Notes under the pieces: model-generated | What the model saw: the letters and a program-made list of their open reading frames with translations, nothing else | What the model was told of the DNA's origin: nothing | The model's database searches: none | In this document: positions 71 to 38,392 of the stretch, piece after piece | Position numbering within the stretch: the stretch's first letter is position 1 | How the letters are laid out: each line of letters starts with the position of its first letter | Translations under genes and position numbers: made by a program | From: Gammaproteobacteria bacterium | GTDB lineage: Bacteria > Pseudomonadota > Gammaproteobacteria > S144-34 | DNA: 38,392 nucleotides | Direction of reading: 5' to 3' | NCBI GenBank assembly: GCA_026989495.1 | Contig: JALSJE010000137.1 | Location: 1-38,392, forward strand

Positions 71-823
71 CTACCGTCGGCGCCCGCCGTCGCCGCGGTT
101 GCGCGCCGCCAGCGTGCGGATCAGGCCTTCGATCCCGCGCGCACGGATCTCGGCAGCGAAGCTCGAGCGGTAGTTCGCCACCAGGCTCACGCCGTCCACG
201 GCCACGTCCACCACGCGCCAGCGCCCGTCGCGACCGCGGCGCATGCGATAGTCGATCTCCACGGGGAAACCCCCGGGCTGGGCGATGCGCGTGCGCACCG
301 TGACCTCGCCCGCGGCCGGATCGCCGCGCAGGGGGAGGTACTCGATGGGCTCGCCACTGTATTCGAGCAGCGCCGTGGCGTAGCTGCGCACGAGCAGGGT
401 GCGGAATTCGCGCACGAAGCGCCGGCGCTGCGCGGGCGTGGCCCGGCGCCAGAAGCGCCCGAGGGCGAGCCGTGCCATGGCCTCGAAGTCGAAGCGCGGG
501 AGCACGTGCGCCTCGACCAGGCCATAGACGCGCTCGGGGTGGGCGGCGAGCGCCTCGTGCTCGGCCTCGAGGGCGGCGAGCACGCGCTCGGCCGTCGCCC
601 GCACCACGGCCACGGGATCGGGCTCGGGCACCGCCGCGCCCGCCCCGCCACGGTCCGGCGCCAGAGACACAGGATCAGCTGCCGCGGCAAGGATCGACCC
701 CGCCTCCTGCGGGCGCAGCGCCGCTCCCCGCGTCTGGCCTCCGCTCCGCTCCGGCCCCGTGTCCGCAGCGCCCGCCCCGCCTGCCCAGGCGAGCACCAGG
801 GCGAGCAGCAGGACCGGGCGCAT
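71..823 (-). CDS. mlaC: MlaC, periplasmic phospholipid-binding protein, carrying an inserted repeat module
   Basis: Periplasmic shuttle that carries phospholipids between the outer membrane and the inner-membrane MlaFEDB complex (family knowledge). The 250-residue product has a signal peptide (about residues 1-19, MRPVLLLALVLAWAGGAGA) and a C-terminal MlaC (Ttg2D-like) domain from about residue 66. That domain includes the typical FDFEAMARLALGRFWRRATP stretch and a late block (EIDYRMRR, WRVVDVAVDGVSLVANYRSSF). E. coli MlaC is about 211 residues. Most of the excess is a module at residues about 18-64 that aligns with a module in the unrelated exported protein at 26719-27306 and with repeat DNA at 33.5 and 38.2 kb. 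The ATG start is supported by the signal peptide. It lies 17 bp downstream of the TolC-family gene, in the mla operon. Confidence 0.9.
   Translation of the reverse strand: MRPVLLLALVLAWAGGAGAADTGPERSGGQTRGAALRPQEAGSILAAAADPVSLAPDRGGAGAAVPEPDPVAVVRATAERVLAALEAEHEALAAHPERVYGLVEAHVLPRFDFEAMARLALGRFWRRATPAQRRRFVREFRTLLVRSYATALLEYSGEPIEYLPLRGDPAAGEVTVRTRIAQPGGFPVEIDYRMRRGRDGRWRVVDVAVDGVSLVANYRSSFAAEIRARGIEGLIRTLAARNRGDGGRRR
633..782 (-). repeat. Divergent unit of the 126-bp repeat family, inside mlaC
   Basis: About 150 bp that aligns over its whole length with 27002-27142. The first 75 bases of each align without gaps up to a shared CCCCGCCTCCTGCGGGCGC block, and both then run through GCGCCGCTCCCCGC and CCCGTGTCCGC. 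This copy has 6 extra bases (TCCGCT repeated) in the hairpin loop region, which adds two codons and keeps the frame. It encodes an AADTG...RGAA.RPQEAG...PVS...RGGAGAAV module next to the signal-peptide cleavage region. Confidence 0.8.
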
Positions 824-3472: not shown

Positions 3473-3722
3473 GGCGCCCTCCCTGCCGGAGACGCCCGCC
3501 GGCCAGAGAGGTTCCGCCCCAGCGGCAGCACCCACCACCCCTCCTGAGGGCGCGCGCCGATTCGCCGCACCTCATCCTTCTCCCCCAGCCCCTTTCCCAA
3601 GGAGGGCGGGGAGGCGGGGTGCGCGGGCGTCGGCGGCCAGGGACGGCCGCCGACGAGCGCGAGCGTCGGTCCTCGCGTACCGCGCAGAATGACTCCCCGC
3701 CCTCCCACGACCCGAGCCGCGC
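3473..3722. other. Noncoding spacer splitting mlaF from mlaE, with a perfect inverted repeat
   Basis: This 250-bp gap interrupts an otherwise nearly gap-free operon. It holds a purine/pyrimidine-biased stretch at about 3570-3615 (minus strand reading GGGAAAGGGGCTGGGGGAG) of the kind seen in dispersed intergenic repeats of many proteobacteria. It also holds a perfect 11-bp inverted repeat, 3628-3638 (CGTCGGCGGCC) with 3645-3655, around a 6-nt loop. There is no T-tract after the hairpin in either direction, so it is not a standard terminator. No convincing gene is seen here. Confidence 0.5.
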
Positions 3723-19036: not shown

Positions 19037-19104
19037 CGGGGCCGGCGTCAACCGATCTGCATGCTCAGCTTCCGGCCCGCAGGGGCCGACTGGAAGCCGG
19101 CCCC
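19037..19104. repeat. REP-like inverted repeat downstream of ptsI
   Basis: The outer arms GGGGCCGGC (19038-19046) and GCCGGCCCC (19096-19104) enclose an inner hairpin, GCTTCC-GGCCC (19068-19078) pairing with GGGCC (19083-19087) and GGAAGC (19092-19097) with a 4-nt bulge. The GGAAGCCGGCCCC end is related to the GGGCCGGCTTCC palindrome at 22016-22035. Confidence 0.6.
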
Positions 19105-19130
19105 ACGGAGGGGAACACGGAGGGGAACAC
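19105..19130. repeat. Two direct copies of a 12-bp unit upstream of mgtE
   Basis: The 12-bp unit CGGAGGGGAACA is present twice in perfect tandem, followed by a third partial CGG. It lies between the REP-like hairpin and the ptsI terminator, about 90 bp upstream of the mgtE start. It may be slippage-derived or a protein-binding site; the sequence does not decide. Confidence 0.6.
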
Positions 19131-20579: not shown

Positions 20580-22016
20580 GTGGACGGGACCCTCGATCTC
20601 GTCGTCATCGGCACCGGACCGGGCGGCTACCGGGCCGGCGTGCTGGCGGCCCTGCGCGGGCTCGAGGTGGCGGTGGTGGAGGCCGGCGACTGGGGCGGCT
20701 GCTGCCTCAACCGCGGGTGCGTGCCCAAGAAGGCCTGGCACCACACGGCCCGCCTGCTGGCCGCCCAGGCCGGCTTCGCCGCGCGCGGCATCCGCGGCCG
20801 CCTGGAGCCGGATCTCGCCGCGGCCTGGGACCACCAGGAGCGCGTGGTGGCCGCGGTGCAGGACTCCTACGTGGACTACATGCAGCGGCTCGGCATCCGG
20901 GCCATCCGCGGGCGGGCGCGCCTCGAGGGGCCGGGCCGCGTGGCCGTCCAGACCGGCGACGGCCGCGAGACGCTGGCCACACGTCACGTCATCGTGGCCA
21001 CCGGCGCCCGGCCGCACATTCCGCCGCCCTTCGCGCCCGTGCCCGGACGGGTGCTCACGACCGACATGCTCTTCGACGCCCCGCCCCCACCGGGCCGGCG
21101 CGTGGCCGTGGTGGGCAGCGGCGTGGTGGCCACTGAGTTCGCCTTCATCCTGCGCATGCTGGGGCTGGAGGTGGCGTGGCTCGCGCGCTCGCGCCCCTTG
21201 CACCGCACGCGCTTCAGCCCCCAGGCCCTGGGGGCGCTCGCGCGCGCGCTGGAGCGCCACGGTGTGGCCGCACGCGTGGGCGCCGTGGTGGAGCGGGTGG
21301 AGGCGGGCGAAGCCGGCGTGCGCCTGCGGCTGGCCGACGGCGCCGAGGAGACGGTGGATTGGGTGCTGCTCGGCACGGGGCGCGTGCCCGTGACCGAGGG
21401 CCTGGGGCTGGAGGCGGCCGGGATCGAGACCGACGCGCGCGGCTTCATCCGCACCGACACGCGCTGCCGCACGGGCGCGCCCGGCGTCTACGCCATCGGC
21501 GACTGCGCCTCGCCCGCGATGACGGCGAACCACGCGCTGGCCGGCGCCACCACCGCCGTGGGCGACATCCTCGCCGGCGGGGCGGACGGGCCCGCCCTGG
21601 ATGCCGGCCGCGTGCCCTTCGTGGTCTACAGTGCCCTGGAGCTCGCGCGCTTCGGCCTCGACGACGAGGCGGCCGAGGACGCGGGCCACGAGCCCGCCGT
21701 GGGCTTCGCCGCCTTCGAGAGCAACCCGCGCGCGCTGGGGCAGGACGAGGCCGATGGCTTCGTGCGCGTGCTGGCGGACATGGACACGGGCTCGCTGCTC
21801 GGGGCGGAGATCGTGGGCGCCGAGGCGGGCGAGCTCGTCCATGCCCTCACCCTCGCACCGGACCCGGCCCGCGCCCTGGGCTGGGTGGCGGGCGGGCTCT
21901 ACAACCACCCCGCCCGCGCCGAGGAGCTGCTCAACGCCGTCGAGACCCTCGCCGCCCGCTGGGGCATCGACGTGCGGCAATGGCAGGCGGCCGGCGACGG
22001 AGCCCGTTCCGCGTAG
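20580..22016 (+). CDS. Dihydrolipoamide dehydrogenase-like FAD disulfide oxidoreductase
   Basis: A 478-residue class I pyridine nucleotide-disulfide oxidoreductase. It has an N-terminal FAD motif (VVIGTGPGGYRAG), the redox pair Cys42-Cys47 in GGCCLNRGCVPKKA, ATGARPHIPP, and an NAD motif (VAVVGSGVVATEFAFILRMLG). YAIGDC and a C-terminal NHPARAEE (the His-Glu charge relay of the HPTxSE type) complete the set. All catalytic parts of Lpd are present. No pyruvate or oxoglutarate dehydrogenase E1/E2 genes adjoin it, so the partner is unknown; lipoamide, glutathione-type or other disulfide substrates are possible. GTG start 4 bp after mgtE. Confidence 0.85.
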   Translation: MDGTLDLVVIGTGPGGYRAGVLAALRGLEVAVVEAGDWGGCCLNRGCVPKKAWHHTARLLAAQAGFAARGIRGRLEPDLAAAWDHQERVVAAVQDSYVDYMQRLGIRAIRGRARLEGPGRVAVQTGDGRETLATRHVIVATGARPHIPPPFAPVPGRVLTTDMLFDAPPPPGRRVAVVGSGVVATEFAFILRMLGLEVAWLARSRPLHRTRFSPQALGALARALERHGVAARVGAVVERVEAGEAGVRLRLADGAEETVDWVLLGTGRVPVTEGLGLEAAGIETDARGFIRTDTRCRTGAPGVYAIGDCASPAMTANHALAGATTAVGDILAGGADGPALDAGRVPFVVYSALELARFGLDDEAAEDAGHEPAVGFAAFESNPRALGQDEADGFVRVLADMDTGSLLGAEIVGAEAGELVHALTLAPDPARALGWVAGGLYNHPARAEELLNAVETLAARWGIDVRQWQAAGDGARSA

Positions 22017-22115
22017 GGCCGGCTTCCAGCCGGCCGCCGCGCAGGGGCCGCGCCGGCGCGGCGGGAAGCCGCCTCACGGGAAGCGGCATGCCCGGCCCGC
22101 CGGCCGGGACGCAGC
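22016..22115. repeat. Cluster of three REP-like hairpins between convergent genes
   Basis: Three stems lie in tandem: GGCCGGCT/AGCCGGCC at 22017-22035 with a 3-nt loop, starting right after the stop codon of the plus-strand gene; GCGGC/GCCGC in the middle; and CCCGGCC/GGCCGGG near the end. The first has the GGGCCGGCTTCCAGCCGGCC form common in REP elements. The cluster sits between convergent genes (plus stop at 22016, minus stop at 22172) and could act as a bidirectional terminator or 3'-end stabiliser. Confidence 0.65.
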
Positions 22116-26719: not shown

Positions 26720-27306
26720 CAGCGCCCCTCCACGGCCAGCACCAGCGCCTCGCCGCCGGCCCCCGGGACCAGGGCGATGGCCGCGGGGGGCACGCCCAGG
26801 GCCACGAGCCAGTCGCGCAGCTCGCTCGCCCACAGCAGCCCCGCCTCGCCGCCGGGGTAGCGCAACGCCAGCACGCTCCCCTCGGGGGCGGCCATCCACG
26901 CGCGCACGGCTGCACGCACCGGCGCGAGCGACGCCACGTAGGCCCCGTCGCGGGGCCGGTCCCAAACCTCGGGCGGCAGGCGCCACTCGGGCCCCGCCAC
27001 GGCGGCGCCCGCACCGCCACGGCCCCTCACCCGCGACACGGGCCCAGCCGCACCGGCAGGGTCCAGCCCCGCCTCCTGCGGGCGCTGCGCCGCTCCCCGC
27101 ACCTGCGCGCTCCGCGCGCCCGTGTCCGCGGCGCCCGCCCTGCCGAGGCTCCGCACCGGGACCGGGGGGCTCGGGACCGGGGCCGACACCGACGCCCCCG
27201 CCTGCGGGCGCTGCGCCGCTCCCCGCACCTGCGCGCTCCGCGCGCCCGTGTCCGCGGCGCCTACCCAAAGCCATGCCAGCGCTGGGAAAATCCATCCAGC
27301 CTTCAT
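26719..27306 (-). CDS. Unknown exported protein with two repeat-encoded modules after its signal peptide
   Basis: A 195-residue protein. Residues 1-17 form a signal-peptide-like start (MKAGWIFPALAWLWVGA). Residues about 17-58 are one 42-residue repeat module (AADTGARS...RGAAQRPQAGASV...PVPSPPVPV...GRAG). Residues about 59-103 are a second, divergent module (AADTGARS...RPQEAG...PVS...RGGAGAAV) that aligns with the module in MlaC. Only residues about 104-195 look like an ordinary domain (WRLPPEVWDRPRDGAYVASL, GVPPAAIALVPGAGGEALVLAV), which I do not recognise. The ATG at 27306 is the start giving the signal peptide. The gene sits between yhdP and the nitrilase gene, with a 4-bp overlap to the latter. 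Confidence 0.7.
   Translation of the reverse strand: MKAGWIFPALAWLWVGAADTGARSAQVRGAAQRPQAGASVSAPVPSPPVPVRSLGRAGAADTGARSAQVRGAAQRPQEAGLDPAGAAGPVSRVRGRGGAGAAVAGPEWRLPPEVWDRPRDGAYVASLAPVRAAVRAWMAAPEGSVLALRYPGGEAGLLWASELRDWLVALGVPPAAIALVPGAGGEALVLAVEGR
27002..27136 (-). repeat. Divergent unit of the 126-bp repeat family, inside the exported-protein gene
   Basis: It aligns with the mlaC copy (633-782), sharing the CCCCGCCTCCTGCGGGCGC block, and is continuous in the same orientation and frame with the canonical unit at 27137-27262. Its hairpin core is GCGCGC-TCC-GCGCGC (27105-27119). It encodes the module next to the mature domain. Confidence 0.85.
27137..27262 (-). repeat. Canonical 126-bp repeat unit, inside the exported-protein gene
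   Basis: Exactly 126 bp (42 codons): the CGTGTCCGCG word recurs at 27121 and 27247. It shares nearly the whole sequence with the units at 33496 and 38145, starting GCCCTGCCG and ending CGTGTCCGCGGCGC. The hairpin core GCGCGC-TCC-GCGCGC is at 27231-27245. It is translated in the AADTG frame immediately after the signal peptide. Confidence 0.9.
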
Positions 27307-33451: not shown

Positions 33452-33495
33452 GGCCTCAAGGTACGGTCCCGCCCCGCGCCCGCGCAAGCGCGCCC

Positions 33496-33622
33496 GCCCT
33501 GCCGGGGCTCCGGCACCGGGACCGGGGGGCTCGGGACCGGGGCCGACACCGACGCCCCCGCCTGCGGGCACCGCGCCGCTCCCCGCACCTGCGCGCTCCG
33601 CGCGCCCGTGTCCGCGGCGCCC
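33496..33622 (-). repeat. Single 127-bp unit of the 126-bp repeat family, between rlmH and maf
   Basis: It matches the 27137-27262 unit almost throughout but has one extra G (CTCCGGCACC for CTCCGCACC), giving 127 bp and shifting the frame. The hairpin core GCGCGC-TCC-GCGCGC is at 33591-33605. This copy appears to be noncoding, 45 bp upstream of the maf start, and in the same orientation relative to transcription as the coding copies. Confidence 0.9.
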
Positions 33623-38113: not shown

Positions 38114-38144
38114 TGGTCTCCCCCTACACCGGCCGCGCCCGCCC

Positions 38145-38270
38145 GCCCTGCCGGGGCCCCGCACCGGGACCGGGGGCTCGGGACCGGGGGCCGGCACCGA
38201 CGCCCCCGCCTGCGGGCGCTGCGCCGCTCCCCGCGACTGGCCGCTCCGCGGCCCCGTGTCCGCGGCGCCC
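38145..38270 (-). repeat. 126-bp repeat unit 1 of the tandem array upstream of lptE
   Basis: Exactly 126 bp, starting GCCCTGCCGG and ending CGCGGCGCCC, followed at once by a second copy. The hairpin core here is GGCCGC-TCC-GCGGCC (38239-38253), instead of GCGCGC-TCC-GCGCGC at 27 and 33 kb. The two changed positions in each arm compensate one another, so pairing is kept. The AADTGPRSGQSRGAAQRPQ frame is in phase with lptE. Confidence 0.92.
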
Positions 38271-38392
38271 GCCCTGCCGGGGCCCCGCACCGGGACCGGG
38301 GGCTCGGGACCGGGGGCCGGCACCGACGCCCCCGCCTGCGGGCGCTGCGCCGCTCCCCGCGACTGGCCGCTCCGCGGCCCCGTGTCCGCGGC
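38271..38392 (-). repeat. 126-bp repeat unit 2 of the tandem array, cut by the window edge
   Basis: The 122 visible bases are identical to 38145-38266 by direct comparison. The array continues past the window, so copy number is unknown. The frame that would enter from an upstream minus-strand gene and stop at TAG (38126-38124) is open across the whole array, so the array could also be a C-terminal tail of that gene. Confidence 0.92.

Follow-up and report, generated by a model that had tools for sequence, protein, structure and literature searches.

A repeat unit inserted in frame behind the MlaC signal peptide is probably one copy of a small, genus-specific mobile repeat

The window (the whole stretch of DNA analysed, 38,392 nt) belongs to a genome of 2.5 Mb, G000, which was compared with two congeners, G001 (WGBS01000330.1) and G002. 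Near its left end lies mlaC, recognized by its PF05494 domain (192 bits, against a gathering score of 26) and by its neighbours, the genes for MlaD and MlaE (table 1). Read from the N-terminus, the product consists of MRPVLLLALVLAWAGGAGA, ADTGPERSGGQTRGAALRPQEAGSILAAAADPVSLAPDRGGAGA and then AVPEPDPVAVVR... (translation of 74–823, minus strand), so that 44 additional residues stand between the signal peptide and a domain that begins only at residue 76. The insert is bounded in the DNA by identical 14-nt direct repeats, GGCGGGGCGGGCGC, exactly 132 nt apart. AlphaFold2, given an input alignment of two sequences only, assigns a pLDDT below 50 to residues 1–65 and models the MlaC domain with confidence. 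On this model the secreted protein probably carries the inserted stretch as a disordered tail at its N-terminus; the 44 residues would be kept on secreted MlaC, where they appear to be tolerated rather than functional. An in-frame GTG upstream of mlaC (844–842) overlaps the stop codon of the preceding gene. That gene, which encodes an OEP/TolC-type outer-membrane efflux protein (841–2211, minus), stands between mlaD and mlaC, as it does in G001, and its overlap with the possible GTG start amounts to 4 nt (GTGA).

Table 1. Features of the window, with positions counted from its first nucleotide.
Feature	Position	Strand	Remarks
Predicted MlaC signal peptide MRPVLLLALVLAWAGGAGA	767..823	minus	read from sequence
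mlaC	74..823	minus	translation and PF05494 MlaC domain, residues 76–239
Inserted repeat unit of mlaC, 132 nt including one flanking direct repeat copy	636..767	minus	encodes ADTGPERSGGQTRGAALRPQEAGSILAAAADPVSLAPDRGGAGA; absent in both congeners
Left flanking direct repeat GGCGGGGCGGGCGC, target-derived	768..781	minus	
Right flanking direct repeat GGCGGGGCGGGCGC	636..649	minus	
Hairpin GGCC-GGA-GC-GGA-GC-GGA-GGCC, 21-nt class, in mlaC unit	736..756	minus	
Empty target site ACCGCGGCGACGGCGGGC, mlaC 3' end	82..99	minus	filled in contig C89, with the 18-mer duplicated
Degenerate partial repeat copy, start of mlaE	3475..3576	minus	G001 and G002 also carry a unit at the mlaE start
Gene for secreted protein, family unassigned; two tandem units directly behind signal peptide	26722..27306	minus	G001 orthologue (L127) without units
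Repeat unit 1 of the 26722–27306 gene, 126 nt	27132..27257	minus	
Repeat unit 2 of the 26722–27306 gene, 126 nt	27006..27131	minus	nearest to the mlaC copy within the window
Repeat unit upstream of Maf-like gene, 127 nt	33491..33617	minus	no longer a multiple of 3
Tandem repeat unit upstream of LptE gene	38140..38265	minus	
Second tandem unit by LptE gene	38266..38391	minus	contig end falls inside the array

The first-pass annotation had proposed that this part of MlaC is a repeat-encoded segment between signal peptide and mature domain, and the proposal holds: the segment is in frame and lies exactly at the junction. The DNA that encodes it matches the gene at 26722–27306 with 122 bits (77% over 164 nt), against 40 bits for the best of 200 dinucleotide shuffles. 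The closest relative of the mlaC copy within the window is unit 2 of that gene, in agreement with the likeness to its second module noted earlier; the ungapped alignment of 75 bases is likewise real, its length having been understated (about 100 nt). A comparison with MlaC of related genomes, suggested as a check, found the protein without the linker in both G001 and G002. There the sequence ...LAAAQAA is followed at once by the mature protein, the signal peptide running straight into APVPEADPVAVVR or APAPEADPVAVVR. MlaC N-termini are generally variable and the genome is very GC-rich, features that might suggest an ordinary variable linker with a chance likeness to another GC-rich gene. This reading has practically no probability left and was rejected on the shuffle test, on the dozens of copies found genome-wide and on the linker-free congeners.

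The annotation had limited the repeat to mlaC and one other gene; it is instead a genome-wide family, with further copies in the window too. Within the genome G000 itself, blast gives 48 matches at E ≤ 1e-3. A 26-nt core pattern is found at 38 sites, the reversed-pattern control at none. A profile search, run on stretches round matches, yields 56 matches, 46 of them 100 nt or longer, and the 2.5-Mb genome contains at least 46 full-length copies. Profile matches in the congeners, where partial stretches were covered, number at least 14 in G001 and at least three in G002. By covariance model, copies occur in three of 274 genomes of the class, all three in the window's genus, and a DNA search of 37 relatives agrees with this restriction, bar two short, weak matches in other families. 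Viral contigs searched with one exact core pattern, plasmids searched at the DNA level for distant likeness, and the window searched with Rfam at the gathering threshold gave no match. The genomes are draft assemblies, broken at copies of the family: contig C107 opens with a unit (G000:C107:1–125) very similar to those of the window-end array (38140–38392), in which the window's contig ends. Two short copies of about 50 nt, 131–132 nt apart, are present in all three species (G000:C99 11817–11999, G001:C56 3755–3940 and G002:C63 1862–2042) and are probably an older shared insertion; the G000 pair sits inside a GltD-like oxidoreductase. On the same G000 contig, a second MlaC paralogue, about 50% identical (G000:C99:1075–1671), has a repeat-family copy just past it, at 862–1005.

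Alignment of 54 near-complete copies divides the unit into a conserved half of about 66 or 72 nt and a fast-diverging half of about 60 nt whose length is kept. The conserved half comprises GCCGCGGACACGGG, followed by a 15- or 21-nt hairpin and by GCGGGGAGCGGCGCAGCGCCCGCAGG; the diverging half ends in ..CGGCACGGCGGGCG. Unit lengths are mostly 126 or 132 nt, with 125, 127 and 128 also occurring, several of those intergenic. Since lengths other than 126 or 132 nt are exceptional, insertions stay in frame. Three stems are supported: (i) start with middle, (ii) the internal hairpin and (iii) middle with end. In 13 distinct copies, the paired fraction of stem cells is 97.7%, and five pairs have changed on both sides. 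Covariation in the stems reaches 0.150 in these copies; shuffles give 0.040, and slid stems no more than 0.020. Kinship among copies inflates such counts, but the slid controls keep this kinship. In 21 copies the hairpin shows complete (100%) pairing, with CG, GC and AU as alternatives, and the 21-nt hairpin class shows the same kind of paired change. By eye, the unit ends have an imperfect inverted likeness to each other. A single long end-to-end palindrome with terminal inverted repeats was not found in the units, whose stems join start to middle and middle to end. Within the conserved half the entropies at the three codon positions are 0.61, 0.56 and 0.45. There is no third-position excess, and the conservation is therefore that of a nucleic-acid structure and not of a peptide. 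Each of the six reading frames is open in 31–35 of 37 copies. The earlier label of a 'module' thus fits in so far as the segment is present in frame; it does not fit a protein domain under selection, base pairing being what maintains the conserved half.

Five independent sites can be compared in an empty and a filled state: the mlaC N-terminal site, the mlaC 3' end, and the genes for a TlpA-like thioredoxin, glutathione synthetase (GshB) and the 26722–27306 protein. The TlpA-like protein carries a net insert of 42 residues (126 nt) relative to both congeners, and GshB contains two units, about 84 codons, that both congeners lack. The mlaC 3' end varies within the assembly itself. Contig C89 ends in the 3' region of mlaC and overlaps the window over positions 1–191. 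Relative to the window, C89 carries exactly 132 additional nt, in frame, with ACCGCGGCGACGGCGGGC (18 nt) on both sides; the left flanks are identical over 92 nt, and the right flanks differ by one substitution and one single-base indel. This site is empty in G001 too. Judged by these sequences, the two contigs, C137 of the window and C89, look like empty and filled alleles in one population, and their difference would be a recent insertion or a recent loss. Over about 60 nt the C89 unit (G000:C89 13987–14118) and the N-terminal mlaC copy are identical in their conserved halves, and they differ in the other half. No close match or donor for the variable half of the C89 unit was found in the assembly, so precise loss of an older insertion is as possible as a recent gain. 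With the same gene present in both states within a single assembly, the long-standing problem of the movement of such repeats and their tolerance by the host can be tested directly.

Further in-gene copies were assigned by coding scores, reading frame and Pfam instead of orthologues, which makes them less certain than the five sites just compared. Their hosts are a P-type ATPase, the tail of an RNB-domain RNase, an ABC_transp_aux protein, a molybdopterin oxidoreductase and a DUF3426 protein. An SLT-type lytic transglycosylase, for which no orthologues were found in G001 or G002, carries a copy behind its signal peptide, and a GATase protein is a host in G001. Some in-frame hosts show split or extended Pfam domains. 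Antisense copies occur in the genes for an M16 lipoprotein and an Fe-S protein. Frame use is uneven: of the 15 in-gene loci, including a partial one, 11 share one of the six frames (approximately 1e-5 corrected for six frames). This strong preference, the position of the unit behind the signal peptides of four hosts and the start of the congener mini-ORFs (described below) in the same frame would suit a frame-1 peptide that acts as a functional protein module, a periplasmic linker or sorting signal, spread for its usefulness. Such a role is nonetheless very improbable. Codons lack third-position bias and conservation tracks base pairing; the hosts include cytoplasmic GshB and a cytoplasmic domain of the P-type ATPase; two hosts carry the unit antisense and two in frame 2; and the segment is predicted to be disordered. 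The junction of signal peptide and mature protein, regarded in the first-pass annotation as the least harmful insertion point, is indeed tolerated, but it is one among several, alongside loops, C-terminal tails and gene junctions. In such genomes, N-terminal extensions are not to be taken as adaptations by default.

Units between genes show a second arrangement. In the arrays of G001 and G002 at mlaB–mlaF and before mlaE, units start with GCCGTGAGC. Each GTG opens an ORF of 43–51 codons that closes at the TGA of the next GTGA, and the chain extends to where the following gene begins. Units with a frameshift in these arrays are read through. In the window's species, most copies have lost GTGA and are read through, the mini-ORF arrangement being only partly there. 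That species has no unit at the mlaB–mlaF junction, where the congeners do, and presence and absence are therefore reciprocal between species.

The segment in mlaC is probably a single unit of a mobile repeat that is small, non-autonomous and genus-specific, and that works like the Rickettsia palindromic elements (RPEs) and the mycobacterial interspersed repetitive units (MIRUs). The proposed working is as follows. (i) The repeat would target GGCGGGCG-like sites, of which a short stretch is either duplicated or shared. (ii) Each insertion would lengthen the target by exactly 126 or 132 nt; both lengths are divisible by three, and most frames contain no stop. Within a gene, the result would for this reason usually be an in-frame, probably disordered extension. 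(iii) Insertions would persist where two genes meet, after signal peptides, and in loops or tails. (iv) By analogy with MIRUs, units within polycistronic transcripts that form the 43–51-codon mini-ORFs on GTGA stop/start overlaps could let translation pass from gene to gene. Spread may be by transposition or by recombination. The target motif GCGGGCGCC reads in frame as A-G-A, a signal-peptidase box, which may favour insertion at that point. Direct repeats of 18 and 14 nt flank the two mlaC sites, and clean single copies mostly share with their flanks only a short GGGCG core plus 0–8 nt. A long target duplication of fixed length was considered as a general rule and is not supported by this short sharing.

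The main competitor, possible yet clearly less probable, is a minisatellite and not a mobile element: chance GGCGGGCG-rich sites would recombine with units and copy one period, and slippage would enlarge the arrays. The motif GGCGGGCG is common to unit ends and targets, tandem arrays of two or three units are frequent, and the two mlaC copies, with conserved halves identical over about 60 nt and differing other halves, have the form that gene conversion would give. Such a process accounts poorly for single units found in either orientation at dozens of unrelated places, each with precise whole-unit boundaries, and for insertions of exactly one or two units.

No transposase could be tied to the family, and the search showed no copy of it near the genome's sole Y1 transposase. 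A REP-type element moved by this RAYT (Y1) enzyme is accordingly a highly improbable identity for the repeat, even though a GGAG-like tetranucleotide stands beside the palindrome (GGGGAGCGGCGCAGCGCC) and the genome encodes one PF01797 protein. The PF01797 gene sits among a different, GGCCGGCTTCCAGCCGGCC-like repeat, and the tetranucleotide is lost in the G001 subfamily (GGCGAATCGG). The window also contains two 30-nt repeats in inverted orientation (19078–19107 and 22012–22041), of the type GTAGGGCCGGCTTCCAGCCGGCC, which belong to a REP-like family; similar repeats appear crowded round the single Y1 (RAYT-like) transposase (L081, G000:C114). A partial reverse transcriptase (PF00078; L102, G000:C56) lies beside what looks like a CRISPR-associated gene. 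As to how a mobile repeat would choose its sites, a rather unlikely proposal is that it does so by base pairing. The internal CGCCCGC, which pairs and covaries with the unit's own GCGGGCG end (G-C to T-A), would also read a GCGGGCG target. The insertion itself would proceed through a structured intermediate, either single-stranded or RNA, which brings in a fixed 126 or 132 nt with a freely diverging loop of about 60 nt. If true, this would be a frame-preserving insertion system without earlier description.

No earlier description of the present repeat family was found in the literature searched, and several known systems invite comparison. RPEs are units of 105–146 bp that occur between genes and in frame inside unrelated conserved protein genes, the latter habit being their hallmark; for the RPE-modified enzyme Gmk, translation and activity were demonstrated (PMC2229807, PMC10969869). 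The present family, a repeat within the range of about 105–150 bp, likewise occurs in frame in unrelated genes and in intergenic DNA. It differs in its lineage, in its GC-rich sequence, in forming tandem arrays, in having two separate stems in place of one end-to-end palindrome, and in that one half of the unit changes freely while its length stays constant. Because the end-to-end palindrome is missing, the family is said to work like RPEs and is not classed as one. It offers a live case outside Rickettsia in which short repeats add new segments, in frame, to essential enzymes as well as secreted proteins. The enterobacterial MITEs ERIC/RU-1 and YPAL/RU-2 measure about 127–168 bp and have open frames, and ERIC-type repeats form occasional in-frame fusions, one bearing a signal peptide (PMC2759123, PMC2229807). 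ERIC, however, has end-to-end pairing of terminal inverted repeats and TA termini, neither of which is seen here. The beta-proteobacterial repeat element (BRE) is GC-rich, tandem, of variable copy number and intergenic, sometimes wholly within coding sequence (PMC3110155). The present family resembles it in being GC-rich and tandem and in lying both between and inside genes. BRE is shorter (about 90 bp) and present across a class, whereas the present family was found in one genus, and in-frame analysis is absent from that account (PMC3110155). MIRUs stand in tandem at the gene junctions of operons and insert at start codons, forming a mini-ORF coupled by a –4 overlap (PMC12548453). The GTGA-chained mini-ORFs at junctions in G001 and G002 are alike in arrangement; in contrast to MIRUs, the present family has many in-frame copies inside genes, and in the window's species GTGA is mostly lost. 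A single family thus unites MIRU-like mini-ORFs at gene junctions with RPE-like insertion inside genes.
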